Shown piece by piece: positions 8,849-24,256 of a stretch of 64,000 nt of DNA (its first letter is position 1; each line of letters opens with the position of its first letter). Both the position numbers and the translations under genes were made by a program. The DNA is from Geobacter sp. SVR (GTDB lineage Bacteria; Desulfobacterota; Desulfuromonadia; Geobacterales; Pseudopelobacteraceae): the NCBI RefSeq assembly GCF_016865365.1, contig NZ_AP024469.1, positions 2,758,501-2,822,500 of the forward strand, in the 5' to 3' direction. Under the pieces are notes generated by a model. It was not told the origin of the DNA, ran no database searches, and was given only the letters and a program-made list of their open reading frames with translations.

Positions 8849-9436
8849 ATGAAAACGATAGCAACGCTTGCAACTGTTGTCATGCTGCTGATCGCCATCC
8901 CGCAGGACTCGTCGGCCGGCAACCCGGTTTCCCTCGCCGACGGGGAATATGGATTTCTCACGGGCTACGGCATCTCGCACATCGGATTCGGCGCCACACA
9001 GCACCAGGTGCAGACCTGGGATGCGATCGCGCGGGCAGGTTTTTTCATGTCCGGGGAACTGGGGCAGGGGCACTGGTATCAGGGGCGGCACGAGACGGTT
9101 TTCGAACTGCCGTACCACATGGCAGTCGATCATGGGGGACGATCGATGGTAGGGTTCTACGTGTTGGGGCACTGGCGGTTCACCGGCCTGGAAAGCATGG
9201 CACCCTATGTGTTCGCCGGAGGAGGGCCGGTGTATGTCGACCTGGGGCTGCCGACCATGGGGACAAAGCTCTGTTTCAGCTATCAGGGGGGCACCGGGCT
9301 GCAGTATTTCCTCGATAGTTCAAAGGCACTGGACCTGCAGTACCGTTACCACCATATCTCCAACGCCGGCACCGCCGAACCGAACGAGCCGCTCAACTCC
9401 AGCAAAATCCTGATGGGAATTTCGGTGTTCTACTGA
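8849..9436 (+). CDS. pagL: Acyloxyacyl hydrolase, PagL-like lipid A 3-O-deacylase
   Basis: 195 residues with a signal peptide (cleavage after SSA at about residue 22) and a C-terminal outer-membrane barrel ending in an aromatic residue (SVFY). The motif YHHISNAGTAEPNEPLN carries the His-x-Ser pair (H169 and S171) of the PagL active site. Known family role: removal of the 3-O-linked acyl chain of lipid A in the outer membrane, altering membrane properties and immune recognition. The ATG at 8849 is chosen because the signal peptide starts there and AGAGGA precedes it. The downstream neighbour is convergent and only about 28 nt away. It stands next to a lipid cluster, but on the opposite strand. 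Confidence 0.85.
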   Translation: MKTIATLATVVMLLIAIPQDSSAGNPVSLADGEYGFLTGYGISHIGFGATQHQVQTWDAIARAGFFMSGELGQGHWYQGRHETVFELPYHMAVDHGGRSMVGFYVLGHWRFTGLESMAPYVFAGGGPVYVDLGLPTMGTKLCFSYQGGTGLQYFLDSSKALDLQYRYHHISNAGTAEPNEPLNSSKILMGISVFY

Positions 9437-9464: not shown

Positions 9465-10160
9465 CTAGGGAACTTTGATTTCGGACAGGGGCACTACCTT
9501 CATGCCCTCCAGCCGCGGCAGGAGCACCGAATCTTCGAGGGGCATATTGACCTCGGGCTCGTCGAGCACCAGCCGGAAGCGATCTTCGCGGGTGTTGCGC
9601 ATCTCAACGACGGTGGCCACCGGCACACCGTTGAAAACCTTGTATTTTTCGTAATATACCTGGTCTCCGTCAGGCGAGACCTTGGAGGTCACCAGGCCGT
9701 TCTCGAAGGTGACCTTTTCCACAAAACCGAGCTTTCCGACCCGTTCCACCGTGCCGTTCAACTGCCGGTCAACAGGCGCATCCACCTCCATCACCCAGCG
9801 CATCAGGCGCCACCCCTGCAGCCCCCCCTGAGCGGGCAATTCGTCAAAATTTCCCACATAAGCCGTCATCTGGGAAGGATAGACCAACGTAATTTTGTTT
9901 CCCAGGCTGAAGGCCTCCATCAGGGTCGTGCCAAAGGGGGACAGCACCACCAGGTGGAGCTGGTCGGGCTTGCGGAAAACAAGGTACCCATGGCCGGACA
10001 TGCCGCGCTCGGAGGACTGGATCGACAGGGACACCGATGATGAGAGCGTGTCCACCGTCGCGCCCGGCTGAAAATCGAGCAGCACCAGCGGCGTCGTGGC
10101 GCAGGCGGCGGTCAGAAGCACCGTTGTCAGCAACAGGAGTTTAAGTATGAGAGTTTTCAT
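9465..10160 (-). CDS. LolB-like outer-membrane lipoprotein of the lipid cluster
   Basis: 231 residues. Signal peptide II with lipobox LTAAC; C20 would be lipidated. The mature part has the half-barrel pattern of LolA/LolB proteins (GHGYLVFRKPDQLHLVVLSP, then later short beta strands). LolB inserts lipoproteins into the outer membrane. Variants next to LolA-like proteins in aryl-polyene-type clusters are thought to receive a lipid product instead. This is the last gene of the long minus-strand cluster, 92 nt after the LolA-like gene. The role in product insertion is inferred from the neighbours. Confidence 0.7.
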   Translation of the reverse strand: MKTLILKLLLLTTVLLTAACATTPLVLLDFQPGATVDTLSSSVSLSIQSSERGMSGHGYLVFRKPDQLHLVVLSPFGTTLMEAFSLGNKITLVYPSQMTAYVGNFDELPAQGGLQGWRLMRWVMEVDAPVDRQLNGTVERVGKLGFVEKVTFENGLVTSKVSPDGDQVYYEKYKVFNGVPVATVVEMRNTREDRFRLVLDEPEVNMPLEDSVLLPRLEGMKVVPLSEIKVP

Positions 10161-10252
10161 GGGAGTATGATGTTCTCCTGAGTCCTGAGATCACAACTAC
10201 CGGAGCTCCTGAAAGGCGCCGGCTCCAGTGGTGGCGATCCGGAGGTCGGACT

Positions 10253-10855
10253 CTAATCCAGCTTGAAGTCTTTTTCGGTCAGGCCGGTGTTCCGGCGCAT
10301 ATTGCGAAAGGTCATCACCGCCCGGTCGCCGTTCTGTTCGACAATCACGAGCCGCTTCACCGTGCCGTCCTCCTGAAAGGATATCACCAATTCCCTGACT
10401 TGCCCCTTGCCCTGGGGCAGAATCGTGACGGTATAGGTCTGTCCGGTCCGGTCGGCCTGCACCGCTATCCCCTCCGGCACCGTAGTGACCGGAGTGGCGA
10501 TTTTATCGAACCAGCGCTTGAGTCCCTGTTCCGGCGGCAGGACGATCCGGTTCCGGTCACCGTCGTTGCCCATGACCTGTTCTATCACGGTATCACGCAG
10601 CACAATGCGGCTGGCATAGGGGGCCGCGATCTGAAGATAGAACAGATCCGGCTTGCGGAAACGCACGCTGCCGGTCATGGTGATGGTGCGCTTCATCATC
10701 GACAGCCGTTTTTCCTGGGTCATCTCGGCGGAAAAATCGTTGGTGCCGGCAAAGGCCTTGCGCAGAGCCTCCAGCCCTTCAACCGGAGTGATCTGGCGGG
10801 CGTGGCCCGTCAATGGACACAACAGCATGATAATGATCAGAATCAGACGACGCAT
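10253..10855 (-). CDS. LolA-like periplasmic lipid carrier
   Basis: 200 residues with a signal peptide (MRRLILI through GHA). The body has the LolA pattern: an alpha helix near FSAEMTQEKRL, then beta strands GSVRFRKPDLFYLQI, IVLRDTVIEQVMGND and a C-terminal LTEKDFKLD. LolA-type proteins ferry acylated cargo across the periplasm in a hydrophobic half-barrel. The start at 10855 is one base after the stop of the dehydratase gene, so translation is coupled. Together with the LolB-like gene it forms an export pair for the cluster product (inference). It may not be the housekeeping LolA. Confidence 0.75.
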   Translation of the reverse strand: MRRLILIIIMLLCPLTGHARQITPVEGLEALRKAFAGTNDFSAEMTQEKRLSMMKRTITMTGSVRFRKPDLFYLQIAAPYASRIVLRDTVIEQVMGNDGDRNRIVLPPEQGLKRWFDKIATPVTTVPEGIAVQADRTGQTYTVTILPQGKGQVRELVISFQEDGTVKRLVIVEQNGDRAVMTFRNMRRNTGLTEKDFKLD

Positions 10856-10856
10856 G

Positions 10857-11264
10857 TTACAGCCTCCCGATACCAAGTGTCATTCGGGCCTGAGCGAGGA
10901 TGTTCCCCCCACAGGTGACCTCCCCTTCGATCAGGGCCAGCCTTCCGAACGATTTGACGACGCGGGCCGCAATCGTCAGTGTATCCCCTGCCAGAACCTG
11001 CCCACCGAACTCGGCATGGTCAACGGTCGCCAGGAATCCCCCCTCCCCCTGCTCTTGGGCCGCCAGGATGCCCCCCAGTTGCGCGATCGACTCGATCAGG
11101 TAGACCTGCGGAAATGCTTCGGGTGCATCGGTAACGCGGCGTTCGGCCCGGGCACTGACTCCCGGCTCAAGGGCCAGCAGCCGGTCAAGCATCAGGAAGG
11201 GATAGCGATGCGGCAGATATGCGGCAGGATCGGGGTTAAACAGGGCTGCCTCCCAGAATATCAA
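10857..11264 (-). CDS. 3-hydroxyacyl-ACP dehydratase, FabZ-like hotdog protein
   Basis: 135 residues. The FabZ signature LPHRYPFLMLDR holds the catalytic His (H19), and IESIAQLGG holds the catalytic acid (E58), as in FabZ. The reaction is removal of water from a 3-hydroxyacyl carrier-protein chain to give a trans-2-enoyl chain. It overlaps the preceding ketosynthase-like gene by 29 nt. It works with the cluster FabG and ketosynthase to build a chain that may stay unsaturated, because no enoyl reductase is present nearby. Confidence 0.85.
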   Translation of the reverse strand: MIFWEAALFNPDPAAYLPHRYPFLMLDRLLALEPGVSARAERRVTDAPEAFPQVYLIESIAQLGGILAAQEQGEGGFLATVDHAEFGGQVLAGDTLTIAARVVKSFGRLALIEGEVTCGGNILAQARMTLGIGRL

Positions 11265-12279
11265 TGGAGAAGCAGGGGCCTTCCGGTGAAGTAGCCATGT
11301 GCAGACCGCGGGCGCCTGCCGGCAGAGAAGCGATCAGCGTTGCCAGGGCCGTGCCCCCCATGGCCAGCGACCTGCCGATGGCGCGCCCCACATCCATGGT
11401 CGGGATACCGCCGACGGCGGCCATGACGCCCGGCATATCCGCGGCATTGCCGGAAAGCGAAACCAGCGAGCAATTCCTTTCAGGCCCGCACAGCAGCTCA
11501 AGCCCTTCCTGCTCATGCCCCGGTATCAGCATTCCGATGGTCCGCAGGTGGTCCACTGCTGCGCGTATGACCGCACCGCGCCGCCGGGCATGGTCGGCGC
11601 TTTCCAGCACGATCATTCCGCAGCCCTCGCCGAACGGCGCCGATGTTCCTCTTACTTGCCCCAGGGCGGCAAATCCTCTGACCAGAATCGGAATCAGCTC
11701 ATCGGCCCCTCCGGTCAGCATGACATCGGCCCGCCCCTCCTCGATGTGACGGCAGGCCAGGAGAAAGGCAGATTCAGCCGAGCAGAAGCGCTGCACAACC
11801 GTGACGTTGGGACCGGTGAAGCCGTGTTCGATGGAAGCATTGCTGGCCGGGGCGTTGGGAACGGTATTGGGGAACAGCATCGGCATCAGCCCTTCCACCC
11901 CTCCGGTAAAATAACCGCTCAGGAATTCAGCCGAATTGGCCAAGCCGCAGAAACCGCTTCCCAGGGCAATTCCGACCCGTTCCGGAGCGGTTGCCTTCAG
12001 GTCGATGCCCGCCTCCTTGAGAGCCATCCCGGCCGCGGCAACGGCAAACTGGCTGCAGCGGTCCATTTTGCGCGCCTTGAGGGGGGGCATGAAATCGGAA
12101 ACCTTGAAGGTGGTGGTCTTGCCCCAGGCAAGCCCCTTCCTGCCCAGCACTTCCGCCGGCATGGGGGTCAGGGCGTTCCCGCCGGTGCGGACCAGCTCCT
12201 GTATGGCGGCCGTACCGATGCCGGCCGCCGAAATGACCGCGGACCCGGTGATAACGATGTCTGAAATCGGAATGTTCAT
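11236..12279 (-). CDS. Ketosynthase-like protein lacking the catalytic histidines (possible chain-length factor)
   Basis: 347 residues, about 60 shorter than a normal KAS II. The thiolase fold is recognisable (DIVITGSAVISAAGIG start, ALGSGF, GEGCGMIVLE). C166 (RFCSAESAF) occupies the nucleophile position. The HGTGT and K...GH segments that carry the two active-site histidines in FabF are not seen. It overlaps the complete ketosynthase gene by 4 nt (ATGA). Such pairs are typical of ketosynthase/chain-length-factor heterodimers in aryl-polyene and type II polyketide systems. Here the cysteine is kept and the histidines lost, unlike classical chain-length factors, so partner status is an inference. 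Confidence 0.7.
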   Translation of the reverse strand: MNIPISDIVITGSAVISAAGIGTAAIQELVRTGGNALTPMPAEVLGRKGLAWGKTTTFKVSDFMPPLKARKMDRCSQFAVAAAGMALKEAGIDLKATAPERVGIALGSGFCGLANSAEFLSGYFTGGVEGLMPMLFPNTVPNAPASNASIEHGFTGPNVTVVQRFCSAESAFLLACRHIEEGRADVMLTGGADELIPILVRGFAALGQVRGTSAPFGEGCGMIVLESADHARRRGAVIRAAVDHLRTIGMLIPGHEQEGLELLCGPERNCSLVSLSGNAADMPGVMAAVGGIPTMDVGRAIGRSLAMGGTALATLIASLPAGARGLHMATSPEGPCFSIDILGGSPV

Positions 12280-13481
12280 AGGGACAGGACCAGTGAGGTG
12301 ATGTTGCCGCCGAAAGCGAAGGAATTGGACATGGCGATGCGGCAATCGCTGATTTTGCTGCCGGCATGGCAGTATTCCAGGTCACATTCGGGATCGAAGC
12401 CGCGAAAATTGAGGGTCTGGGGTATCAGCCCCTTATTGAGGGAGATCACCGTAGCCACCGCCTCGATGGCACCGGCCGCACCCAGGCAGTGTCCGGTCAC
12501 CGATTTGGTGGAAACCAGCGGGACCTGGGGAGCGCGCTGGCCGAAAACCAGCTTCATGGCATTGGACTCCACCACATCGTTGAGCGGCGTGCCGGTGCCA
12601 TGGGCATTGACCCAGCCGACCAACAGCGGGTCAACCGCAGCGAGTTCCAGCGCCCGGCGCATCACCCTGGCCGCCATGGCGCCGGTCGGCTCGGGAGCGG
12701 TCATGTGGTGCGCCTCGCCGGCCAGGGCATAGCCGAGGACAGCACCATAGATACGGGCACCGCGGGCCAGGGCATCGGCCTCATCCTCCAGCACCATGAA
12801 GGCAGCCCCCTCCCCCAATGAAATGCCCTGGCGGCCGAGGCTGAAAGGTGCGCACGGCTCCGGATCGACCACCTTGAGGGAATTGAAGCCGGCAAAGGTC
12901 AGCAGCGAAAGCGTATCGACACCGCCGGCCACCACCACTTTCTGGCGGCCGCAGGCGATCAGGTCGGCTCCCCAGCCGATGGCAGTGGCAGAGGACGAGC
13001 AGGCGGTGGTAATGGTGCCCTGGTAGCCCCCAAGGCGATAAATACGGGCAATATCGGTGGTGGTCTGGTCCGGCAGGATGCCGCGCAGCAGCGAAGGGCG
13101 TTCCTCTCTGCCTTCCAGCGCGGCCTTGAGCCAGGCTTCACCCTGGAACATGCCGGCAGCGCCGCCGCCGATGGAAACTCCCATATCGTAGGGAGAGTAC
13201 AGCCCCAGCACGCCGCTGTCGCGCAATGCCTCTCCGGCGGCGATCACACCGAACTGGTCGGAACGGGACAGACGGCGTGACTCGCGCCGGCTGAAATGGT
13301 CGAGCGGATCATACCTCTTGACCTGCGAGCCGATCCGGGCCGGAAAGGGGGAGACATCGAACAGGTCCAGGGACCCGATACCGCTTCGTCCGCTGCTCAG
13401 CACCTCGCCGAATTCGGCGGCACTTTTGGCGGCTCCGCAGAAGACACCCAGACCGGTAATGACTACCCGCCGGGCGCTCAC
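12276..13481 (-). CDS. Beta-ketoacyl-ACP synthase, KAS II (FabF)-like
   Basis: 401 residues. The complete triad is present: C161 in TTACSSSATA, H294 in NAHGTGT, and K326 and H331 in STKSVTGHCLGAAG. It carries out Claisen condensation of an acyl chain with malonyl-ACP. The GTG start at 13481 overlaps the end of the FabG gene (stop 13478-13480) and begins the usual RRVVITGLG motif; no ATG fits as well. It is followed by the ketosynthase-like partner in an ATGA overlap. It is probably dedicated to the cluster rather than to housekeeping fatty-acid synthesis. Confidence 0.9.
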   Translation of the reverse strand: MSARRVVITGLGVFCGAAKSAAEFGEVLSSGRSGIGSLDLFDVSPFPARIGSQVKRYDPLDHFSRRESRRLSRSDQFGVIAAGEALRDSGVLGLYSPYDMGVSIGGGAAGMFQGEAWLKAALEGREERPSLLRGILPDQTTTDIARIYRLGGYQGTITTACSSSATAIGWGADLIACGRQKVVVAGGVDTLSLLTFAGFNSLKVVDPEPCAPFSLGRQGISLGEGAAFMVLEDEADALARGARIYGAVLGYALAGEAHHMTAPEPTGAMAARVMRRALELAAVDPLLVGWVNAHGTGTPLNDVVESNAMKLVFGQRAPQVPLVSTKSVTGHCLGAAGAIEAVATVISLNKGLIPQTLNFRGFDPECDLEYCHAGSKISDCRIAMSNSFAFGGNITSLVLSL

Positions 13482-14215
13482 AGGATTCCTCCATCCACGA
13501 CCAGCGACTGTCCCGTGACATAGGAGGCACGCTGCGAAGCCAGGAACAGCACTGCCGAGGCGACCTCCTCCGGTTTTCCGATCCTGCCCAGGGCGGCCCC
13601 TTTGACCACCCGGTCGACCACCTCCTGCTTGAGGCCGGCGGTCATGTCGGTATCGATCATCCCGGCCGCGACTGCATTGACCCGGATGCCCATGGGTCCG
13701 GCTTCGCGGGCCAGCGACCTGGTGAAACTGATGGCTGCCCCCTTGGAGGCGGCGTAGTTGGCCTGGCCCGAGGTGCCGAGCAGGGCGGAAACGGACGAGA
13801 TATTGATTATGCAGCCTGAACGGCGGCCCATCATCTTGCGCAGCCCCCACTTGCAGCAGTGAAAGAGCGGGTTGACATTGGAGCGGATGACTGCATCCCA
13901 GTCCTCATCGGACATCATCGCCAGGTAGCAGTCGCGGATAATGCCGGCGTTGTTGACCAGCACGTCGATATGACCGGTGCCTGCAGCGGCATTGATCACC
14001 TCCTGGGCCCCGGCCGAGGTGGCGACATCGGCCCTGATCACCTCGACCGTCCCGGGAAGCTCGCCGGCATCCCGTACCAGCGCCCCGGCAGCTTCGTCAT
14101 TGCTGAGATACGCCGCAACCACCCGGGCTCCTTCACGTGCGAACGCCAGCGTGATCGCACGGCCGATGCCGCGTGTACCGCCGGTTACAACCACCACTGA
14201 ATCCTTGAACTCCAT
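13478..14215 (-). CDS. 3-oxoacyl-ACP reductase, FabG-like SDR
   Basis: 245 residues of classical short-chain dehydrogenase. It has TGGTRGIG for NADP(H) binding, NNAG, a serine in INISSVSA, YAASKG with the catalytic Tyr and Lys, and a C-terminal YVTGQSLVVDGG. It reduces the 3-keto group of the growing acyl-ACP. It is the first gene of the downstream half of the cluster; a 224-nt gap separates it from the upstream radical SAM gene, so it may have its own promoter there. It overlaps the next ketosynthase gene. Confidence 0.9.
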   Translation of the reverse strand: MEFKDSVVVVTGGTRGIGRAITLAFAREGARVVAAYLSNDEAAGALVRDAGELPGTVEVIRADVATSAGAQEVINAAAGTGHIDVLVNNAGIIRDCYLAMMSDEDWDAVIRSNVNPLFHCCKWGLRKMMGRRSGCIINISSVSALLGTSGQANYAASKGAAISFTRSLAREAGPMGIRVNAVAAGMIDTDMTAGLKQEVVDRVVKGAALGRIGKPEEVASAVLFLASQRASYVTGQSLVVDGGIL

Positions 14216-14439
14216 GAAAACCCCGGAAATAAAATAACACGCAGTATAACCGTGGCCCGCTGAAATGTCCAGAATTGGCGAGGCTTCGAATCCGGGGCTC
14301 CGGCCAGACCGGGTGACGAAAGAGCCGGGGGCTTCTCGTAATCGTCATATTGGCCGGCCCTTCCATAAACATTGGCACGGCCAGAAGGCCTTTCAGTCGC
14401 TCTGAAGGAAGCTCCAGGGATTCGGGATATGAGGCGGCA

Positions 14440-15855
14440 TCAAGGTACGGATGGATCTGCAGGACCGTCAGGAAGATTGAGCGGCCGGTGGTGGCTGCGC
14501 CCCAGCTTCTTGATCAGTTTCCACAGGGGACCCTTGACCTGGAACAACCGAATGGCATCCAGCATGGCGGAACTGGTATTGACCTCCAGGCCGGGCACGA
14601 CCCAGTTCCTGCGCTGCATGGCCTCGGTTGTGATCAGCTCGGAGAAGAAGCCGCGCACCTGCGGTGCAATGTAGAAGACCGGCTCCAGCATATCGGTCGC
14701 AGGCGTGACCACCCCTTCGGCCAGGGCGGTTTCATACAGGCGGGTATTGGGATAGATGCGGATGCCGGTCATGGCGATCACGGCGGTCGGCTCAAGTTCA
14801 TCCATCAGGTGAAAGCTCTCCATGATCGTTTCGCGGGTTTCGCCGGGGCCGCCGAACAGGAGATAATGGGCGAAGTCGAGCTCCCTTTCGCTGCAAAGCT
14901 GCGAAGCACGCCGCAGGTCGTCGGCGGTGAAGGACTTGTGCAGATTGCGGAGCATGGCCGGTGAGCCGGAATCGCTGCCGAATTCGATCGCGTCGCATCC
15001 TGCTGCCAGCATGTGGTCCAGCAGTTCCGGCGTGATGAAGTCGGGATTGATGAAGGCCGACCAGTTGACCGGCAGGTGCGCCGCGGTCATGGCGCGGCAG
15101 AGCTGGGCGGCAAAATCGGGAGGGTAGTTGAAGATGTCGTCCACGAAGTACAGGTAGGAAACGCCGCAGTCATCCACCAGGGCGCGGATTTCGGCCACGA
15201 TCTCGCCCACTGGGCGCAGCCGTACACGATGTCCCTCCAGCAGCGGATAGGTACAGTAGGTGCAGGAAAAGGGGCAGCCCCGCTTTGTCTGCACATTGGC
15301 CATCCCTCCGATACGATGGTAGTGGCCGACATTGAACAGCGTGCGCAGCGGCGTGCCGATCCGCTCGACCGGGCGGGGGGGAACGAACGAGCCGCTCCTC
15401 GGCAGGACTAAACCCGGTATCCCGGCGGGATCCCTCCCCTGCTCCAGACGCTCCAGCAACAGCGGCAAAGCCTCCTCACCCTCCCCTACCAGCCCGTAAT
15501 CTGCGCCTGCCGCTTCCAAAACCTCCTGCGGCATCAGCGAGAATCCCGAGCCACCGACGATCACGGTGCTGTGCGGGCGGCAGATCGCCACGAGGTCGGC
15601 CAAGTCCGGCAGATAGCTGCGGCTGGCGGGCCAGGTGACGTTATCCAGGTTGCGCAGGGAAATCAGAACCGCCTGCGGACGATGCTCGGTCAGAGCCGCG
15701 GCCACGGCGGCCTTCGGTTCCTGCTCCAGGCAGAGGTCGATCGCAGCCAGGTTGTGGCCTGCCCGGATCAGGGGACTGGCCAGGAAAGCCAGCCCGATCG
15801 GAAAGACCGGATAGGGGTCGCGCTCGCGATTGGCCGAGATCAGCAGGATCTTCAC
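14440..15855 (-). CDS. B12-binding / radical SAM protein of the lipid cluster (1)
   Basis: 471 residues. The B12-binding domain at about 1-150 shows PIGLAFLASPLIRAGH, VIVGGSGFS and GLVGEGEEA. The radical SAM core has TKRGCPFSCTYC (CxxxCxxC) at about 195-210 and GGPGETRET further on. It starts 4 nt inside the thioesterase gene (ATGA-type overlap), so the two are co-translated. Enzymes of this type methylate, cyclise or otherwise remodel unreactive carbon centres; with acyl-carrier and ketosynthase neighbours, the likely substrate is an acyl chain or lipid (inference). The C-terminal tail of about 80 residues is less conserved. Confidence 0.85.
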   Translation of the reverse strand: MKILLISANRERDPYPVFPIGLAFLASPLIRAGHNLAAIDLCLEQEPKAAVAAALTEHRPQAVLISLRNLDNVTWPASRSYLPDLADLVAICRPHSTVIVGGSGFSLMPQEVLEAAGADYGLVGEGEEALPLLLERLEQGRDPAGIPGLVLPRSGSFVPPRPVERIGTPLRTLFNVGHYHRIGGMANVQTKRGCPFSCTYCTYPLLEGHRVRLRPVGEIVAEIRALVDDCGVSYLYFVDDIFNYPPDFAAQLCRAMTAAHLPVNWSAFINPDFITPELLDHMLAAGCDAIEFGSDSGSPAMLRNLHKSFTADDLRRASQLCSERELDFAHYLLFGGPGETRETIMESFHLMDELEPTAVIAMTGIRIYPNTRLYETALAEGVVTPATDMLEPVFYIAPQVRGFFSELITTEAMQRRNWVVPGLEVNTSSAMLDAIRLFQVKGPLWKLIKKLGRSHHRPLNLPDGPADPSVP

Positions 15856-16280
15856 GACACTTCGGCCTCCAGCCAGTCGGTCATGGCCCTGACGCGTTCT
15901 TCGACCTCCGGCGGCATCCGGAACTGCAGCACGCCGTTCAGGTCGGTCAGGACATGGGTGGTTACGCCACTGGCCAGTCTGCGGCCGGTGCCGGTAACGA
16001 TCTCGTTGACGAAGATCAGTGTGGCGGTGTCACTGGGACGCAGACTGGTGCGCACGATGATCTCGTCCTTGAAGCGGGCCGGGCTGTGATATTTCACCTC
16101 CAGGCCGACGACCGGGCCAAGATACCCTGCCTCCGACAGTTGGGCTGCGTCAAGCCCGAAACGCCCCGCCAGATCGTTGCGCCCCACCTCCATCCAGGCC
16201 ACATAGTGCCCGTGCCAGGCGACCTGATAAGCGTCGACTTCGTTGAAACGCACGGTGAGAAGGGTCTCGTGATATCTCAT
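15852..16280 (-). CDS. Acyl thioesterase, 4HBT/YbgC family
   Basis: 142 residues of hotdog fold. The family signature VRFNEVDAYQVAWHGHYVAW has the catalytic Asp and the conserved HxxY, followed by MEVGR. It probably releases or transfers the acyl chain from the carrier protein, as seen for thioesterases in aryl-polyene clusters. The ATG at 16280 gives a 4-nt overlap with the FabD-like gene; an ATG 18 nt upstream is possible but would overlap more. Confidence 0.85.
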   Translation of the reverse strand: MRYHETLLTVRFNEVDAYQVAWHGHYVAWMEVGRNDLAGRFGLDAAQLSEAGYLGPVVGLEVKYHSPARFKDEIIVRTSLRPSDTATLIFVNEIVTGTGRRLASGVTTHVLTDLNGVLQFRMPPEVEERVRAMTDWLEAEVS

Positions 16281-17113
16281 GATTGACTGTCGATCCATCG
16301 GTTGAATTTGCTGAGGGCGGCTCCCTGCCCGACCTCATGAAAATCGGTGGCGCCGAGGCGGCGCAGGGAGCGGTAGCTGCGTTCCCAGAAAACCGGGCGG
16401 CAGAGTTCTTCCAGCAGGAACTGCGGGATCTCTTCCGCCGAGAGCAGACGCTGCCGCAGGTGGTCCACCAGCGGGATCACCGGTTCGCTGAAGCCATAGT
16501 CGCCGATGATGACGCGCAGGTCCCCGGCGATCTGTTCGATCAGCGGGGTATGCAGCGGGGCATCGCAGGGGAAGACACCAACCGAGAAGGCCCCGGCTTC
16601 CCCGGCCTCGGCCGTTGCCGCCTCGATCCTGCGGCGTTCGCCCGCCAGCAGAAAATGGCGGGAGGTGTTATGGTTGGCGACATGCACGCCGTTGCGGCCG
16701 GCAATGTCTTCCAACGGATCCAGGGGCAGGCCGATCACGCTTCCCAAGGCATAGTCGCAGTGCGTTCCCATGCCTGCCAGGCAGCGGCCGATCCTGCCGG
16801 TCAGCTCCAGGGCATCGCCGCTGTCGATCGATCCGCAGGCAGCCAGGGCGGGATAGATGCCGAGGCTGTGCTCGGCCACGATATCCGGAAGTCTTCCCTG
16901 GCTCAGCAGGTGCTTGAAGCGATACAGGCTGACCGTAACGCCGAACAGCTGCAGCCGGACACTTTCCTTCAGCGCCGGATCGGCAAGGCTGTCATGGCGA
17001 GGATCGAAACCGGTACGGGTATGGCAGCACGCTGCCAGCTCGTCGAACAACAGGGAGTCCAGGGGCAGATCGGTGCGCGCCATGGGCTGCCCGGGAAACA
17101 TGAAGCAGGTCAT
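16277..17113 (-). CDS. FabD-like acyl-carrier-protein transacylase with an altered active-site motif
   Basis: 278 residues. It begins FMFPGQ, as malonyl-CoA:ACP transacylases do. The nucleophile elbow reads EHSLGIYPA in place of GHSLGE: the serine and histidine remain, but the first glycine is glutamate and the final glutamate is isoleucine. PLHTPLI supplies the second catalytic His as in the FHSPLM motif. It is likely to load an acyl unit onto the cluster ACP, perhaps not malonyl. ATGA overlaps occur on both sides, with the radical SAM gene upstream and the thioesterase downstream. Confidence 0.75.
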   Translation of the reverse strand: MTCFMFPGQPMARTDLPLDSLLFDELAACCHTRTGFDPRHDSLADPALKESVRLQLFGVTVSLYRFKHLLSQGRLPDIVAEHSLGIYPALAACGSIDSGDALELTGRIGRCLAGMGTHCDYALGSVIGLPLDPLEDIAGRNGVHVANHNTSRHFLLAGERRRIEAATAEAGEAGAFSVGVFPCDAPLHTPLIEQIAGDLRVIIGDYGFSEPVIPLVDHLRQRLLSAEEIPQFLLEELCRPVFWERSYRSLRRLGATDFHEVGQGAALSKFNRWIDSQS

Positions 17114-18396
17114 GCGCCCGGCACCTTGCGGCGGAGCGCACCACGGAACCCGAAATTCATCGGGCCAAAGACCTGTACCGAACGGTGCAGCTTGAAAATA
17201 CGGCGGTACATGGAAGGGAAGGAGTAAAAGTCGCGGCAGAGCTGCTCGTAGCCCTGCTGCAACTGTTCCACGGTCATGCCGGACGGCCGGAAGGTGACAT
17301 GCTCCATGTCGTAATCGCGCCAGTCGTTGGATAAAATGCGCCCCTCCTGTTCCAGGCGGCGCCGCACACTGGTGCCGGGATACGGGGTGAGAATCGGGAA
17401 GATGGCCGACTCCAAACGAGCCTGTTCGCAGAAGCGCAGGGTCTTCTCGAACACCTCCGGGGTATCGCCGTCGTAACCCAACACGAACGAGCCAAGGATA
17501 CCGATGCCATGGTCGCGGAAGGCCCGGGCGTCCTCCAGGTATGATTGGGCGCTGTTGGTGGTCTTGCCCATGGCCGAGAGTCGGTCCTGGTCAAGGGATT
17601 CGAAACCGATGAACATGCCCAGGCAGCCCGATTCCCCGGCCGCCTTCATCAGTTCCGGATCGCGGGCAAAATCGATGGGAGAATGGGACAGCCATTTCAG
17701 GCCCATCCCTTTCATGCCCTGGAACAGCGCCAGCGAATAGCGGCGGTCGGCCACGATGTTGTCGTCCACGAAAAAGGCAAAGGAATTGCGGGCGCGCATC
17801 TGCTCCAGTTCGCTCAGAACCAGCTCGATCGGGCGTTTGCGGTATTTGCGGCCGTAGAAGGCGGTCACCGAGCAGAACTCGCAGTCGTGCGGACAGCCGC
17901 GGGTGGTCTGGAGGGTATTGGTCAGCAGATATTTCTTGTGGGTATAGATCTCGCGCCGGGCTGCCGGGACCTGGACCATGTCCATCAGTTGGCCTGCCTG
18001 ATACCGCGGCTTGAGCCGACCCGCCGCCCAATCGGACAGCAGTTGGGGCCAGACCAGCTCCCCCTCACCGACCACCACCGCATCGGCATGCTCCAGGGCC
18101 TCGTCCGGCATGGTGCTGACATGGTACCCCCCCATCACCACGGTAGTACCCCGAGCGCGGAAGGCATCGGCGATCTCGTAGGCGCGATTGATCTGGGCGG
18201 TCATGGCGGTCAAGGCCACGATATCGGCACCGCAGGAATAATCGAGTTTCTCGAAGCTGTCGTCGCAGAAGTCGAGCTGCCACTCGGGCGGAGTTACGGC
18301 GGCGATGGCGGCCAGGGAAAGGGAGGGGAACTTGAAGGAAAGCTCACCCCACAGCCTGCCCTTGGGCCATCCGGGGGAGACGAACAACAGTTTCAT
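17110..18396 (-). CDS. B12-binding / radical SAM protein of the lipid cluster (2)
   Basis: 428 residues. The B12-binding domain (KLLFVSPGWP start, VVMGGYHVS, AVVVGEGE) is followed by a radical SAM core with TTRGCPHDCEFC (CxxxCxxC) and the downstream FIGFESLD and SFVLGYDGDT. It is a P-methylase/BchE-type architecture. The start at 18396 overlaps the previous gene's stop by 4 nt; a longer frame upstream lies inside that gene. It likely acts on the acyl or lipid intermediate of the cluster. The two adjacent, similar proteins suggest successive or paired radical steps. Confidence 0.85.
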   Translation of the reverse strand: MKLLFVSPGWPKGRLWGELSFKFPSLSLAAIAAVTPPEWQLDFCDDSFEKLDYSCGADIVALTAMTAQINRAYEIADAFRARGTTVVMGGYHVSTMPDEALEHADAVVVGEGELVWPQLLSDWAAGRLKPRYQAGQLMDMVQVPAARREIYTHKKYLLTNTLQTTRGCPHDCEFCSVTAFYGRKYRKRPIELVLSELEQMRARNSFAFFVDDNIVADRRYSLALFQGMKGMGLKWLSHSPIDFARDPELMKAAGESGCLGMFIGFESLDQDRLSAMGKTTNSAQSYLEDARAFRDHGIGILGSFVLGYDGDTPEVFEKTLRFCEQARLESAIFPILTPYPGTSVRRRLEQEGRILSNDWRDYDMEHVTFRPSGMTVEQLQQGYEQLCRDFYSFPSMYRRIFKLHRSVQVFGPMNFGFRGALRRKVPGA

Positions 18397-19829
18397 AACG
18401 CGGAAGACTCCTTGGCAGTGGCGATGGGACGGGTGGAGCAATGCTCGCGCAGGTACTCGGCGGGCTTCATCATGCGCTGGGTCCGCCACAGCACCCGGAT
18501 GATGTAGGGGATCTGGGCCGGCCGCACCTGGCGGATCCAGTCCATGATGCCCTTATCACCGGCGGTGTTGAGGATCGAGCGGCGCCAGGTTTCGGCGTAC
18601 AGGTCGAAGAAGCGCTCCGCCCCCAGACGGGGCTCCCACAGCAGATGGTGCATATCGAAATTCGACCATTGCTGACCGGCGGTGCGGCTGCGAACCTGGT
18701 CAAAGTATTCCGTGCCCGGCAGCGGGGTCAGGATGGTGAAACCGGCCCGCTGCAGGCTGTACTGTTCTACAAATTGCCATAGCTGCTGAAAATCGGTCTC
18801 GTCCCAATCGGGGTCCACCAGAAAATTGCCGTTGATCCCGTATTTGAGGGAGCGCGCAATGCGGACCGCCTCGATGCTGTCCTCAAGACCGGCTTCCTTG
18901 TCGAGGTTGTTCAAGCCCTTGTCGCTGGCTGCCTCCAGCCCCAGGAAAATGTCGAAATCCTTGGCCAGCGGGCGCCAGGCCTCCATCAGGTCGGCGCTCT
19001 TGCGGATCAGGTCGGTACGGGTCTGCACCAGAATCCAGCGTTTGTAGATGCCGCGCCGTTTCAGGGCCCGGGCCAGCTCCAGGCTGCGGGGGGCGTTGTA
19101 CCAGAACAGGTCGTCAGCCACGAACACGGCGTCACCGCTAGCGGCAAAATCATCAACCACCGCATCCAGGCTGCGTTCACGGCAGGAACGCCCGTACAAC
19201 TGCCAGACCGAGCAGAAGGAACAGTGATGGGGACAGCCGCGGGCGGTTTCAATCAGCCAGACCGGCTTGAAGAGCAGGCAATGGTAGCCGGAGCGGTGCC
19301 GCTCCACCAGATCGCGGGCCGGCAGCGGTACCAGATCCAGGCTGGTGCGCTGCAGAAGGGGGGGAGTACTGATCCAGCCCTCTGCGGTTCTCAGCCGCAG
19401 GGCCGGCACCTGGTCGAGCCGCTGCCCCTTGTCGACCGCGACGGCAAGGGCCGGCACGACCTCTTCGCCGTCATCAACAACAATGGCGTCGATGGCGTCG
19501 CATTCCAGAGCAGCAGGATAGGCGGCAGCCGCATGCCCCCCTACCACGATGAATACCTCGGGGCTGGCACGCCGGACCTCGCGGGCGGTTTCGATCACCC
19601 GGTCAAACTCCAGGGCGTGCAGACAGCCGATGCCGACCATCCGGGGGCGGGTGCGCCGGACCCAGGTGGCGACTCCGGGGCGGAAGCGCAGATCGGCAAG
19701 CGTGACGGTGTGCCCCCCCGAGCGGAGTGCGCTGCCGAGATATTCCATTCCCAGCGGCTCCACGCAAAAGAACGGCCCCAGACCGAAGCGGTCGTTGCCG
19801 GGATGGGGACGCAGGAGCAGAATGTTCAT
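18393..19829 (-). CDS. B12-binding / radical SAM protein of the lipid cluster (3)
   Basis: 478 residues. The B12-binding N terminus has GMEYLGSALRSGGHTV and VVGGHAAAA. The radical SAM site is ETARGCPHHCSFC (CxxxCxxC), with a FLGLEAASD strand downstream. The ATG at 19829 begins the NILLLRPHPG strand; the reading frame stays open further but lacks family sequence. It lies 34 nt after the acyl carrier protein gene and overlaps gene (2). Related to (1) and (2) but clearly diverged, so it is not a recent duplication. Confidence 0.85.
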   Translation of the reverse strand: MNILLLRPHPGNDRFGLGPFFCVEPLGMEYLGSALRSGGHTVTLADLRFRPGVATWVRRTRPRMVGIGCLHALEFDRVIETAREVRRASPEVFIVVGGHAAAAYPAALECDAIDAIVVDDGEEVVPALAVAVDKGQRLDQVPALRLRTAEGWISTPPLLQRTSLDLVPLPARDLVERHRSGYHCLLFKPVWLIETARGCPHHCSFCSVWQLYGRSCRERSLDAVVDDFAASGDAVFVADDLFWYNAPRSLELARALKRRGIYKRWILVQTRTDLIRKSADLMEAWRPLAKDFDIFLGLEAASDKGLNNLDKEAGLEDSIEAVRIARSLKYGINGNFLVDPDWDETDFQQLWQFVEQYSLQRAGFTILTPLPGTEYFDQVRSRTAGQQWSNFDMHHLLWEPRLGAERFFDLYAETWRRSILNTAGDKGIMDWIRQVRPAQIPYIIRVLWRTQRMMKPAEYLREHCSTRPIATAKESSAL

Positions 19830-19863
19830 GCGCGACACCCGTTCGCGTGGCCGCCCGAAAAAC

Positions 19864-20121
19864 TCACGCCTGCTTTTCCCGGATGTAGGCCGCCATGCTA
19901 CGGACCGAGGCAAAGACCTTGCTGCCGGTGGCAGCATCCGGCACAACAGTGCCGAACTCCTTTTCCATGGCTACCACCAGCTGAAGCGCGTCGATCGAGT
20001 CGAGTCCAAGCCCTTCCCCGAACAGCGGCGCGTCGCTGTCGATCTCTTCGGGAGCCATGCCCTCGATCCGCAGGCTGTCGATAATCATCTGCTTTACTTT
20101 CGGAATCAGCTCGTCTGACAT
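19864..20121 (-). CDS. Acyl carrier protein
   Basis: 85 residues. The phosphopantetheine attachment serine is S42 in GLGLDSIDALQL. Four helices with an acidic helix II are evident. It is a dedicated carrier for the cluster's acyl chain, not placed with the usual fabD-fabG-acpP-fabF housekeeping set. It lies between two radical SAM genes, which suggests those enzymes may act on ACP-bound chains (inference). Confidence 0.93.
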   Translation of the reverse strand: MSDELIPKVKQMIIDSLRIEGMAPEEIDSDAPLFGEGLGLDSIDALQLVVAMEKEFGTVVPDAATGSKVFASVRSMAAYIREKQA

Positions 20122-20179
20122 TACGACCTCTCAGTGTGAAGATAGTGAATCGGCCCATCCGGATCCTGCGAAAAATGCA

Positions 20180-21559
20180 TCATCCCCGGGTGCCGCGTTT
20201 TTTGGACTGGGCCGGGTGGTCCTTGAATTCGTTCTCCCAGGCTGCATCGGCGATCTCGGCATAGGCCCCGGCATAGGCATCCATTGTGTCGGACAGACCG
20301 GAAAAGATCTCCTCCGCCCCGTCATGGGTGGCATAGGCGCCTTCGCTGGCAAACAGCTCCCGTCCGGTTTCGGGATGGTCGATCAGCATGCAGGGGCGCA
20401 GTAGATTGTCATGCTCCCCCTGCTTCTGCCGGATCTTCCTGAAGAGCGGCGAACCGAGGGCCTCACGAATGGTGGTACGGCGGATGTTGTCCACAGCAAA
20501 GTGACAGAAGACGCACGGCTCGATGTCGCCGTTGGCGTTGACATGGAAGTACTTCCGTCCCCCGGCCAGACAGCCCGACACCATGGGGCCGTCGTTCCAG
20601 AAGTCGATGAACAGCATCGGCTTCTGGTCGCGGAAAGCGGCCACGCTCCGGCGCAGATGATCGCGCTGTTCAGGGGTCGGCATCAGTTCCGGGTCGGGTT
20701 TTCTGCCCACCGGTACGTAGGAAAACAGCCACAGGGCGAATACCCCTTTGGAAACCAGCATATCAATGTAGGCGGGATCGGTGATCAGGGCGCTGTTTTT
20801 GCGCGAATGGGTAAAGGAGCCGCAGAAGGAGAGCCCTGCTTCCCGCAGCAGATCCATGGCGTGCATGACCTTGTCGAAATGCCCTGCTCCGCGCCGTTCG
20901 TCGGTCTCCTGCTGGTACCCCTCCAGCGAGAAGGCCGGCATGACGTTGCCCACCTCGATCAGCTGGCGCACCATCTGTTCGTCGATCAGGCCGCCGTGGG
21001 TAAAGACCAGAAAAGCCATGTCGCTGTGCTTCCTGAAGATCTCGAAGATGCCCTCCATGTAGAAGGGTTCTCCGCCGGAAATGACGGCGAAGTAGATCCC
21101 CATCTCCTTGATCTGCATCAGGATCGAGTCCAGTTCGTCCAGGGACAGTTCCAGGGATTTGTTGTAATCGCCGGCATAGCAGCCGTAACAGGCCAGGTTG
21201 CAGCGCATGGTGGGACTGATCACCACCGTCGAAGGGGGGTAGAAGCCGTTCTGATCGCCCCACTCCTTGCGGCGGTTGGTGCCGTTCAGCAGATGGTTGA
21301 CTGCCAGGTTGCTGATCCACTTGTCACGTTGGCCCGGATGCAACTCTCGCAGGATGCGGCGTGGAAACTCGATGGCGGGATGTTTGTCACGAATCAGCCC
21401 CCTGATCCAGCGGATGCGTTCCTTGTAGTAATCCTTCTTGGGGATCATCTCCATCAGATGCGTCATCCTGATCAGGGTTTCATCGGACGAACCGGTGGCC
21501 ATCTCCAGGAGGTAGCTCAGGATTTTTTCCTTGGTATAGTTCTTCAACGACTGGATCAT
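20180..21559 (-). CDS. Radical SAM protein with a C-terminal SPASM-like region
   Basis: 459 residues, lacking the B12-binding domain of its neighbours. The radical SAM motif is TMRCNLACYGCYAGDYN (CxxxCxxC), preceded by a roughly 130-residue helical N-terminal region. The C-terminal cysteines in VSGCLAGGRKYF and GDIEPCVFCHF look like auxiliary-cluster ligands. SPASM-type enzymes modify peptides or small molecules; the substrate here is unknown but is likely in the lipid/head-group pathway. The ATG at 21559 is preceded by GGGAG; the open frame extends upstream without homology. 58 nt separates it from the ACP gene. Confidence 0.8.
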   Translation of the reverse strand: MIQSLKNYTKEKILSYLLEMATGSSDETLIRMTHLMEMIPKKDYYKERIRWIRGLIRDKHPAIEFPRRILRELHPGQRDKWISNLAVNHLLNGTNRRKEWGDQNGFYPPSTVVISPTMRCNLACYGCYAGDYNKSLELSLDELDSILMQIKEMGIYFAVISGGEPFYMEGIFEIFRKHSDMAFLVFTHGGLIDEQMVRQLIEVGNVMPAFSLEGYQQETDERRGAGHFDKVMHAMDLLREAGLSFCGSFTHSRKNSALITDPAYIDMLVSKGVFALWLFSYVPVGRKPDPELMPTPEQRDHLRRSVAAFRDQKPMLFIDFWNDGPMVSGCLAGGRKYFHVNANGDIEPCVFCHFAVDNIRRTTIREALGSPLFRKIRQKQGEHDNLLRPCMLIDHPETGRELFASEGAYATHDGAEEIFSGLSDTMDAYAGAYAEIADAAWENEFKDHPAQSKKRGTRG

Positions 21560-21628
21560 CGTGACTCCCTGTTTTCTGTTCCCACCCTGCCCCGCTCTCC
21601 GCAATTCCGGAACGTGGCGCGCCACATT

Positions 21629-22291
21629 CTACATGTGACGCAGAAATACCTTGCAAATACTCCAGGTGTCGCGAACCGGACGAAAATGGCTGGTGGCGCG
21701 GCCGTCTGCCACGCGGGCGGCCACCGGAAGCGAGGCGACCGTGAAACCGCTGCGCCAGGCTTTCATCAGCAGCTCCATTTCGAGATCATACCCCTCGGCC
21801 GACAGACTGACCGATCTGAGCAGCCGGCTGGAATAACACCGAAAGCCGGACTGGCTGTCGGTGATCTCGAATCCCGTCCGTTTGCGCATGCACCAGACCC
21901 CGAAACGGTTCCAGACCTTTCTCAACCCGGCCATCTCCTCGAACTGGCGGAAGCGCGATGCGATCAATACATCGGTGCCTGACTCCCTGGCAGCCAGGGC
22001 AAGCCGCGGGATGGCCGAGACATCGTGCTGTCCGTCGGCATCCACGGTAACGACCGCTTCGTACCCTTTTTCCAGGGCCCAGGTGAAACCGGTCATGAGA
22101 GCCCGCCCCTTGCCGCGGTTGCGATCATGTGACAACAGGGTGACCGGCAAGCCGGCGACGATACGGGCAGTGGCATCGGTGGAACCGTCGTCCACCACCA
22201 CGACCGGCAATCCGAGCTCCTGGCACTCCCGTGTCACCTCAGCCACGCTCTTTTCGGCATTGAAAGCCGGAATCAGGATACAGGTTGCCAC
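21629..22291 (-). CDS. Family 2 glycosyltransferase (dolichyl-phosphate-mannose-synthase-like)
   Basis: 220 residues, a single GT-A domain. It starts ILIPAFNAE, has VVVDDGSTDAT and the metal-binding VDADGQHD, and a GFRCYSS acceptor region. No C-terminal membrane helices are present, so it is a soluble or peripheral enzyme using a nucleotide- or lipid-linked sugar. It overlaps the deacetylase gene by 19 nt, so the two are coupled. In this cluster it would add a sugar to the lipid product (inference). Confidence 0.85.
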   Translation of the reverse strand: MATCILIPAFNAEKSVAEVTRECQELGLPVVVVDDGSTDATARIVAGLPVTLLSHDRNRGKGRALMTGFTWALEKGYEAVVTVDADGQHDVSAIPRLALAARESGTDVLIASRFRQFEEMAGLRKVWNRFGVWCMRKRTGFEITDSQSGFRCYSSRLLRSVSLSAEGYDLEMELLMKAWRSGFTVASLPVAARVADGRATSHFRPVRDTWSICKVFLRHM

Positions 22292-23106
22292 GATTCGACC
22301 AGGTCCAGCAGGGTTGTGAAGCGGAAACGCTCCAGCAGGGCCGCGATCCGTCCGGCAGCGTCGCTGCGGGGACCGTAGGTGGCAAAACTCCTCAGGGGAT
22401 GCAGTTTGACCCGCGGACTTTCCGGATCAACCTCCCGCGGATGCAGATACAGAACCGCCGGCTGCTTCACGTCGTGGTAGCGCGCCACCGTTGCTGCGAT
22501 CATCCGGAAGGGAAACAGGCGAAATCCCCAGCCTCCGCCGGTCGGGAGGTTGAAAAGGGGCATCGGCGTCACCATTGGTGGCACTTCCCACAGTTCCCCT
22601 GCTCCGGCCCGCACGCGTGAGGGATGAAGGGCCGAACCGCTGCCCGCCAGAAAGGGGAGCGGATTGCGGCTTGAATCATACAGATAGCCCCTCCGGACAA
22701 GAACGGCATCCACCCAGGGTGTCCGCATCGACACCGACCAGCGCGGCGCACGGAATCCGAAGGGTCGTTTTCCGGTCTGGTCCAGCAGTATCGCTTCGGT
22801 CCGCTCCAACTCGCATTCGAATTCTTCAACGGTCAGGTCATGCAGCAGGCGATGGGACCAGCCATGGGAAGCCACCTCGTGCCCCTGCCGTTCGATCATC
22901 GGCGCCAGCTCCGGTTCTGCCTCAGCCACGCATCCGAGCATGAAAAAAGTGGCTTTTGCACCGTGGCTGTCAAGCAGCGTCAGGATACGCTCGGTGGCCT
23001 GCCGCACCCGCCAGGCCGAGCGCGGAATTTCCGGCTGCTGCCCGGCGCACACATGAAACCAGTCCTCCACATCTACCGTCAGTGCATGTATCTGATTATC
23101 GGGCAC
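22273..23106 (-). CDS. Polysaccharide deacetylase family protein (NodB fold, DUF3473 type)
   Basis: 277 residues. The NodB-homology domain has TVDVEDWFHV with the catalytic and metal-binding Asp pair, SHGWSHRLLH with the zinc histidines, FRAPRWS and a late LYLHPREVDP. The C-terminal extension is like that of the deacetylase associated with PEP-CTERM/exopolysaccharide loci. It removes N- or O-acetyl groups from a saccharide. It is the first gene of the lipid cluster on this strand and overlaps the glycosyltransferase, so a sugar head group is plausible. No signal peptide, so cytoplasmic action is likely. Confidence 0.85.
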   Translation of the reverse strand: MPDNQIHALTVDVEDWFHVCAGQQPEIPRSAWRVRQATERILTLLDSHGAKATFFMLGCVAEAEPELAPMIERQGHEVASHGWSHRLLHDLTVEEFECELERTEAILLDQTGKRPFGFRAPRWSVSMRTPWVDAVLVRRGYLYDSSRNPLPFLAGSGSALHPSRVRAGAGELWEVPPMVTPMPLFNLPTGGGWGFRLFPFRMIAATVARYHDVKQPAVLYLHPREVDPESPRVKLHPLRSFATYGPRSDAAGRIAALLERFRFTTLLDLVESWQPVS

Positions 23107-23212
23107 TCACCCCTGCCTCAAAATAATTTAAAATAACAGCTCGCCGGTCTTTCCGTCAATAGCTGTTGTACCCCTTCTGCCGCACCAGGCGGGCTCAGAG
23201 GGGCTGTTCCTG

Positions 23213-24112: not shown

Positions 24113-24200
24113 GATCTGCCGTAAACGCTTTACGATGAGACGCAGAGCCCGAAACGGGAGCCCTCAAAACCTGGACAGCTTCACCCATACGACAAAAAAA

Positions 24201-24220: not shown

Positions 24221-24256
24221 TGATTCTACCGCATTATAATCGAAAAACAATAGCCG

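Follow-up and report, generated by a model that had tools for sequence, protein, structure and literature searches.

A ketosynthase and radical SAM gene cluster in Geobacter sp. SVR and its putative role in outer-membrane lipid biosynthesis

Organization of the gene cluster

The single-contig 4.72-Mb genome of Geobacter sp. SVR carries, within the 64,000-nucleotide stretch analysed here (contig NZ_AP024469.1, positions 2758501-2822500; the window), fifteen genes that combine chain-building enzymes of the fatty acid type with radical S-adenosylmethionine (SAM) enzymes, a glycosyltransferase, a deacetylase and Lol-type proteins (Table 1). All lie on the minus strand and are read from position 23106 to 9465. 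From their content, conservation and similarity to other systems we propose, with moderate confidence, that the cluster serves the biosynthesis and export of an outer-membrane lipid. An aryl-polyene-like chassis combined with tailoring by ladderane-type radical SAM enzymes would be the best reading of the genes.

A preliminary description of this DNA had listed fifteen co-directional, mostly overlapping genes with functions as in Table 1, which Pfam profiles and open reading frame (ORF) coordinates bear out. Overlaps occur at eight of the 14 junctions (4 bases at six, 19 and 29 bases at one each), and the other junctions have gaps of 1 base (one), 34-63 bases (three), 92 bases (one) and 224 bases (one, between rSAM3 and the FabG-type gene, the widest). 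The gap of 63 bases becomes 69 when the SPASM gene is taken to start at ATG 21559, the probable start as judged from the translation, its ORF being open from 21625. This layout suits a single operon, or two operons of which the second starts at the ketoreductase gene. Sigma-70-like sites are present at 23159, before the first gene, and at 14271, inside the 224-base gap, and the promoter/terminator scan performed no better than on shuffled DNA (4 sites versus 3.3). An Rfam scan gave nothing useful at the locus. Chance or mis-annotation as the origin of the cluster was ruled out by the Pfam matches, the conservation and the linkage.

Table 1 Genes of the cluster in the window and the convergent PagL-like neighbour
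Gene	Predicted product	Position	Strand	Basis
deac	NodB-type polysaccharide deacetylase with DUF3473	22273..23106	-	Pfam Polysacc_deac_1+DUF3473; TIGR03006 210 bits, under cut-off 276
GT2	Family 2 glycosyltransferase, polyprenyl-phosphate sugar synthase-like	21629..22291	-	Pfam; best NCBIfam models AglJ 90 and PpgS 89 bits, both well under cut-off
SPASM	Radical SAM/SPASM enzyme	20180..21559	-	Pfam; present in 18 of 20 relatives' loci
ACP	Dedicated acyl carrier protein	19864..20121	-	Pfam PP-binding
rSAM1	B12-binding radical SAM enzyme, HpnR-like	18393..19829	-	Pfam
rSAM2	B12-binding radical SAM enzyme, partial DUF4070	17110..18396	-	Pfam
AT	FabD/MdcH-like acyltransferase	16277..17113	-	Pfam, 40.7 bits (gathering 32.7); NCBIfam MdcH 108 and FabD 91 bits, each under cut-off
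4HBT	4HBT (YbgC/FadM-like) thioesterase	15852..16298	-	Pfam; TIGR00051 60 bits, cut-off 68.7
rSAM3	TIGR04072 (rSAM_ladder_B12) B12-binding radical SAM enzyme	14440..15855	-	391 bits, above curated cut-off 360
KR	FabG-type short-chain dehydrogenase/reductase, ketoreductase	13478..14215	-	Pfam; TIGR01830 262 bits, cut-off 298
KSa	Ketosynthase (KS), both KS halves	12276..13481	-	Pfam; GTG start, 4-base overlap with KR
KSb	Short KS-like partner, N-terminal KS half only	11236..12279	-	Pfam
FabZ	FabZ-like (FabA/FabZ) dehydratase	10857..11264	-	Pfam weak, 31 bits; NF000582 72 bits, cut-off 113
LolA	LolA-like periplasmic carrier	10253..10855	-	Pfam; best NCBIfam model flexirubin LolA2 64 bits, cut-off 125
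LolB	LolB-like lipoprotein	9465..10160	-	Pfam; lipobox-like LTAAC close to N terminus (translation)
PagL	PagL-like lipid A 3-O-deacylase, proposed cluster member	8849..9436	+	Pfam

Conservation and genes located outside the window

Conservation was surveyed in 97 genomes of the order Geobacterales, the source genome counted, with orthologues defined by identities of at least 65% for rSAM2 and at least 51% for KSb. Orthologues of rSAM2 were found in 55 genomes and of KSb in 58; one genome (G032) has rSAM2 without KSb, four (G016, G028, G051, G052) have KSb without rSAM2, and KSb is absent from all 12 genomes of genus g17. Both genes occur in 54 genomes, in 41 of which they lie on the same contig within 18 kb, so that the radical SAM and ketosynthase genes are linked in most relatives with both. 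Twenty loci from relatives (L017-L036) were picked from the 55 genomes for having rSAM2, and the edges of these stretches cut off outer genes. Fourteen of them span the region from SPASM to KSb, and every one of these carries an LpxL-like acyltransferase, ACP, AT, 4HBT, KR, KSa, FabZ and rSAM3. The other genes are found in fewer spanning loci: deac and GT2 in 13 each, LolA in 12, an MMPL exporter in eight, a fourth B12-binding radical SAM enzyme (rSAM4) in eight, LolB in six and PagL in three. Orthologues of rSAM1 (73-85% identity) are present in eight of the 20 loci and in three of the spanning ones (L017, L019, L024), a match of 25% on the opposite strand in L034 being left out of this count.

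The cluster is larger than first described, since relatives add LpxL, MMPL and rSAM4, and PagL flanks it. Among the 20 relatives' loci, 19 have the LpxL-like acyltransferase, placed between SPASM and ACP, 14 have rSAM4 and nine have MMPL. In the source genome the set is split. An LpxL homologue (PF03279) lies at 3296869-3297732, immediately before an rSAM4 homologue at 3297801-3298988; the former is 65% identical to the cluster copy of a relative of the same genus, the latter 64-79% identical to rSAM4 in six relatives' loci. The LpxL-like family keeps the HX4E motif in the alignment, and its best NCBIfam model is phosphatidylinositol mannoside acyltransferase (101 bits, below cut-off), the LpxL model giving 71 bits. 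The displaced pair is preceded by a B12-binding radical SAM gene with DUF4070 at 3295085-3296560, which was rejected as a member of the cluster; a search of 120 loci at 1e-60 matched L075 (72%) and L096 (36%) alone.

The MMPL exporter had been reported as absent, which is correct for the cluster in the window and fails for the genome and for the clusters of relatives, so that its absence was dropped as a feature of the system. A protein of this family (PF03176) is encoded at 2731731-2734250, 24 kb left of the window and 38 kb from KSb. MMPL of the cluster type accompanies KSb in 57 of 58 genomes and occurs in two of the 39 genomes that have no KSb, counted without regard to relatedness; in 45 of the 57 it lies within 30 kb of KSb. 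Two genomes (G002, G035) carry two MMPL copies; the unlinked copy of G035 is 66% identical to that of the source genome, the linked copy 54%. A PagL-like gene is present in 42 of the 58 genomes with KSb and in four of the 39 without, again ignoring relatedness; in 26 of the 42 it is no more than 30 kb away from KSb. Among 66 further loci, of which at least four belong to the order, PagL matches occur in four (L057, L059, L060, L061), all outside it.

Beyond the 20 loci, 80 named loci were collected as the best 80 of 531 candidates, with one contig entered twice (L137, L138). They place the cluster in the named strains Oryzomonas japonica (L087), Geobacter argillaceus (L088), Trichlorobacter thiogenes (L108) and Geomobilimonas luticola (L123). 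Three Acidobacteriota contigs (L110, L111, L120) each hold, on one short contig, rSAM2 (64-69%) and rSAM3 (54-56%) of the Geobacterales type, and these pairs suggest transfer between phyla.

Two observations concern the surroundings. Immediately upstream, at 23213-24112 on the minus strand, is a solitary Cas6-like gene (PF10040, 48 bits), which also adjoins the cluster in several relatives of the same family, with 30-56% identity; no direct-repeat array of the CRISPR type was seen in 22800-30000 around this gene, and PHROGs and NCBIfam searches with this neighbour gave nothing informative. The region 44000-56000 of the window has a low G+C content (46-52% versus about 60%) and encodes a TIR and SLOG domain protein at 46544-48610; it is possibly a defence island.

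Ketosynthases and radical SAM enzymes

The ACP keeps the GLGLDSIDALQL motif across a 27-row alignment, and KSa has the Cys-His-His residues conserved in a 24-row alignment. In bit scores, KSa reaches 275 against the genome's own FabF versus 165 and 157 against the two full ketosynthases of the aryl-polyene cluster of E. coli CFT073; with a profile built from the 24 rows these values are 346 versus 217 and 198. KSb is missing the C-terminal ketosynthase half together with its two histidines, and should therefore not condense, so that a role like that of a chain-length factor, or in holding an acyl group, is inferred. Its structural model (mean pLDDT 82.9, with residues 114-119 and 130-144 below 50) has a predicted fold like that of FabF (Z of about 35 over some 315 residues). 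The best PDB match by sequence, 9s5h, has a generic molecule name only and is not among the 50 matches listed in each of two structure comparisons of KSb. For a homologue in G. sulfurreducens, Phe is given at the active-site position in a listing by Rattray et al. (2009; PMC2649909). In our aligned rows the residue before the active-site Cys is mostly Phe, and the discrepancy may be a matter of alignment.

In the rest of the source genome the ketosynthase family has one strong match, FabF, and three weak matches, which were rejected as further ketosynthases and are thiolases. Therefore, the genome has no Pfa-type synthase for polyunsaturated fatty acids (PUFA). The KAS III family has four matches, of which three are FabH-like by eye and one is a type III polyketide synthase. 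Absence of an enoyl reductase, as stated in the preliminary description, is correct for the cluster; as a general claim it does not stand, since a housekeeping enoyl reductase, which was not searched for, could act on the chain.

NCBIfam already has a model, TIGR04072 (rSAM_ladder_B12), for the B12-binding radical SAM enzyme rSAM3. Of 297 genomes sampled from the phylum, 102 match this model at 1e-80 and 63 pass the cut-off, and at E <= 1e-80 there are no matches in 14 control genomes; at 1e-40 one control, Thermotoga maritima, matches below the cut-off. Twenty loci were drawn from the TIGR04072 matches, the source genome's own second copy included. A ketosynthase lies within a stretch of about 20 kb in 14 of them (in L065 via a short match only) and a ketosynthase or ACP in 16, with neither in L062, L072, L075 and L076. 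The second copy in the source genome, at 2026711-2029241 (L076, 8012-10542, minus strand), scores 306 bits, below the cut-off; it directly adjoins the type III polyketide synthase gene, and another B12-binding radical SAM gene is nearby.

A link to ladderane-type enzymes had been suggested from the number of radical SAM genes, and is upheld by the TIGR04072 score, by the profile scores given below and by a tree of rSAM3, which is 43% identical to the protein of Candidatus Jettenia and 41% to that of Candidatus Brocadia. In the tree, the rSAM3 sequences of Geobacterales fall together with three from Acidobacteriota (20 rows, 100/99) beside a Syntrophaceae-type group of 13 rows, and these 33 rows join a 12-row group containing Ca. 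Jettenia in a group of 45 (97/91). The tree is rooted at the midpoint. It started from 82 loci, of which one gave no row, and seven rows with a stop codon in the aligned stretch were dropped (L087, L020, L128, L131, L151, L071, L058), so that Brocadia (L131) is not in it. The nearest solved protein to rSAM3 is the tryptophan C2-methyltransferase 6wte (217 bits), and its solved relatives include several methyltransferases (6wte, TokK, CysS). The enzyme rSAM1 matches HpnR, the hopanoid C-3 methylase, with 245 bits over nearly the full model, yet far under the cut-off of 650, and there is no hopanoid gene among the fifteen.

Proposed product and relation to known clusters

The observed gene content, conserved catalytic motifs, linkage, co-occurrence and homology can be arranged into a putative pathway, in which the chemical steps, their order and the product are predictions. 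The FabD/MdcH-like enzyme would load the extender onto the dedicated ACP, after which KSa and its partner KSb would elongate the chain, KR would reduce and the FabZ-like enzyme would dehydrate it. Double bonds would be retained, the cluster being without a dedicated enoyl reductase, and a polyene product is plausible. Three to four B12-radical SAM enzymes and the SPASM enzyme could then modify unactivated carbons of the chain while it is bound to the ACP, with C-methylation as the most likely reaction and ring closure as a possible one. Next, the LpxL-like acyltransferase would move the chain to a glycolipid anchor, of which the GT2/deacetylase pair may make the amino-sugar part, while the 4HBT thioesterase would proof-read or release. 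Finally, MMPL and LolA/LolB would carry the lipid to the outer membrane, where its anchor may be trimmed by PagL. Loading, elongation, reduction, dehydration, acyl transfer and export are predicted from homology. The C-methylation or cyclisation by B12-radical SAM enzymes, the amino-sugar anchor and the part played by PagL are suggested by analogy.

Several observations weigh against this proposal. KSa is nearer to FabF than to aryl-polyene ketosynthases, and nearer also than to two other PDB chains, 6kxd and 6qsp, which we take to be polyene-type ketosynthases; a polyene is therefore not implied by the sequence. Unlike the chain-length factors of textbooks, KSb keeps the active-site Cys in 12 of 13 rows (Ser in L024), and no match was obtained between it and the chain-length factor of the E. 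coli aryl-polyene cluster. The solved B12-radical SAM relatives of rSAM3 also include AprD4 and OxsB, enzymes of this class that are not known to methylate. No ligase or starter enzyme was found for the cluster. In 13 of 54 genomes rSAM2 and KSb lie on separate contigs, and rSAM1 and LolB are confined to three and six, respectively, of the 14 spanning loci. The LolB profile had no match in any of six loci used for comparison (see below), and LolA scored just 20 bits in the one from E. coli. The MMPL protein of the source genome may be a paralogue rather than a moved exporter. Furthermore, no lipid from such a cluster is described in the open-access literature searched, which was mostly abstracts with some passages.

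The product had initially been suggested to be undescribed. The cluster type itself was mentioned earlier: according to passages in Rattray et al. (2009; PMC2649909), members of Geobacter and Pelobacter carbinolicus have clusters similar to those of anammox bacteria. With an NCBIfam model also available, the cluster type is therefore not wholly undescribed. New here are the survey of the gene set in 97 genomes, the addition of LpxL, MMPL and PagL to it, its division between separate places in the source genome, the lack of the genes specific to anammox bacteria, and the tree group that joins rSAM3 to the anammox enzyme.

An extension of the proposed role in outer-membrane lipid synthesis is tentative, and in our opinion rather doubtful in its entirety. 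It holds that the product is a new class of outer-membrane lipid with a polyene or branched chain, C-methylated or cyclised by B12-radical SAM enzymes, and that rSAM3 catalyses on the ACP-bound chain the same basic reaction as its anammox homologue does in the making of ladderanes. If true, the ladderane step would be open to study in culturable bacteria. Ladderane assembly is treated as an open question, and anammox bacteria as lacking a pure culture, in parts of two papers (PMC4790861; PMC9821293). In the present cluster type, close homologues of the anammox B12-radical SAM enzyme are found, whereas the desaturase, ligase and methyltransferases are not. Since this homologue occurs without those genes in named strains, it offers a way to learn how the enzyme acts on an ACP-bound chain. 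Geobacter-type bacteria respire on extracellular solids, and the predicted lipid would reside in the outer membrane of cells that respire on solids outside the cell.

Alternatively, the chain could end on lipid A, as a special secondary acyl chain of lipopolysaccharide introduced by the LpxL-like enzyme, with PagL clearing the 3-O acyl position. The HX4E motif of the acyltransferase, the frequent proximity of PagL to the cluster among relatives (26 of 42 linked) as well as its presence in four of the 66 further loci, and the fit of GT2 and deacetylase to amino-sugar decoration are consistent with this. We nevertheless regard it as unlikely. Lipid A is exported by the Lpt route, which has no need for MMPL or LolA/LolB, phosphatidylinositol mannoside acyltransferase ranks ahead of LpxL as the top model of the acyltransferase, and 16 of the 58 genomes with KSb are without PagL at the threshold used.

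Rattray et al. suggested polyunsaturated fatty acids or hydrocarbons as products of the Desulfotalea and anammox clusters; for the present cluster we consider them quite improbable. Phytoene-desaturase-like and AMP-ligase genes have no match in the window and the 20 relatives' loci, and the LpxL-like acyltransferase and export set indicate an envelope lipid rather than a free hydrocarbon. As to OleA, for which no dedicated model was used, the four KAS III matches include three proteins that look FabH-like by eye and one type III polyketide synthase. Still, the clusters have like kinds of KS, KR, dehydratase and radical SAM genes and the present one is without an enoyl reductase; the genome has no Pfa-type synthase; and C31:8 and C31:9 hydrocarbons are reported for D. 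psychrophila in the relevant passages of PMC2649909.

Synthesis of ladderanes or other cyclobutane lipids in Geobacterales is very unlikely, in spite of the rSAM3 score above the rSAM_ladder_B12 cut-off, its 43%/41% identity to the Jettenia and Brocadia proteins, the 45-row tree group (97/91), and the deacetylase, GT2, MMPL, ACP, FabZ and KS genes in common with anammox clusters. The AMP-ligase, the desaturase and both anammox methyltransferases are missing from the window and the 20 loci, the anammox loci gave no match to AT, 4HBT, LpxL or LolA, and passages in PMC2649909 report that no ladderanes were found in D. psychrophila and describe its cluster as having striking synteny with that of anammox bacteria. 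Least probable of all is an ordinary aryl-polyene cluster with its head-group genes elsewhere: MMPL, LolA and acyltransferase homologues do belong to that type of chassis, but the genome has no PF00221 match, ApeH and ApeB are matchless in the window and the 20 loci, KSa scores 275 bits to FabF versus 165 and 157 to aryl-polyene ketosynthases, and the E. coli cluster contains nothing equivalent to the B12-radical SAM genes, AT and deacetylase.

For comparison with known systems, profiles of the Geobacterales proteins were run on six loci: the aryl-polyene cluster of E. coli CFT073 (apeA-R), two anammox loci (Ca. Jettenia, L127; Ca. Brocadia, L131) and three others. The resemblance to an aryl-polyene chassis that had been noted at the outset is confirmed by the E. 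coli matches of KSa (220 and 199 bits), KSb (84), KR (175), ACP (79), 4HBT (81), GT2 (97), LpxL (53), MMPL (50), FabZ (24) and LolA (20); GT2 and LpxL correspond to one protein there and to separate genes here. LolB, deacetylase, AT and all radical SAM enzymes gave no match, although a LolB-like gene is also part of the E. coli cluster according to passages in PMC8253772. The same passages propose that the aryl-polyene lipid reaches the outer membrane via an RND protein and LolA/LolB homologues, and predict that synthesis of APE_Ec starts from 4-hydroxybenzoate through ApeH. The reported lack of an ammonia-lyase gene holds for the whole genome (no matches to the aromatic ammonia-lyase family PF00221, which is present in five of 14 control genomes). 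The acyl-ACP synthetase ApeH and the methyltransferase ApeB had no match in the window and the 20 loci, the rest of the genome not having been searched for ApeH. With no lyase in the genome, no starter ligase in the window and 20 loci, and KSa nearer to FabF, the cluster is therefore not an aryl-polyene cluster. Nor does it match that of CFT073, the sole aryl-polyene cluster compared.

In both anammox genomes the sole gene above the TIGR04072 cut-off sits inside a ladderane-candidate cluster, which holds a deacetylase, ketosynthases, a degenerate ketosynthase, two methyltransferases, an AMP-ligase, SPASM, TIGR04072, ACP, FabZ, MMPL, desaturase-like and GT2 genes. These clusters resemble the gene classes and order given in passages of PMC4790861 and PMC2649909 for kuste3351-3335 of Kuenenia, whose ladderane-candidate cluster (kuste3335-3352) was presented by Rattray et al. 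(2009) and Javidpour et al. (2016). Shared with the Geobacterales are the TIGR04072 enzyme (geobacterial profile 510 bits in Jettenia, 502 in Brocadia), the SPASM enzyme (50 and 56), the DUF3473 deacetylase (266 and 275), MMPL (272 in Jettenia, in pieces in Brocadia; outside the window in the source genome), GT2 (154 in Jettenia), KSa (262-298), FabZ (65-71), ACP and the combination of a ketosynthase with a degenerate one, as well as KR in Brocadia. Only the anammox clusters have the AMP-ligase, the two methyltransferases and the phytoene-desaturase-like enzyme, for which tblastn found no match at 1e-3 in the window and 20 relatives' loci; the anammox-type desaturase is also without a match in the whole source genome at E <= 1e-10. 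Only the window type has rSAM1, rSAM2, AT, 4HBT and LolA and, in relatives, LpxL and rSAM4; profiles of AT, 4HBT, LpxL and LolA found nothing in the two anammox loci.

Ladderane-type clusters of unassigned function have also been reported from non-anammox phyla in the Cariaco Basin (PMC9902471, in part). Within the order, three of 29 relatives searched have the anammox-family desaturase, in a Desulfotalea-like cluster, and all three are without KSb. These clusters (L178 in G005, L179 in G067 and L180 in G012), with desaturase and AMP-ligase genes, are nearer to Desulfotalea and anammox bacteria in content. They share KS, LolA, MMPL and FabZ with the window type and, in G005 and G012, also a TIGR04072-like gene (33-34% identity), ACP, 4HBT and GT2, but have desaturase-like and AMP-ligase genes in addition, and identities are just 20-44% for most matches. 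From these few cases, the Desulfotalea-like and KSb-type clusters may replace one another in Geobacterales. Judged by its genes, the cluster of strain SVR is intermediate between the two known types, with export and attachment functions like those of aryl-polyene clusters and a radical SAM core like that of the ladderane-candidate clusters.

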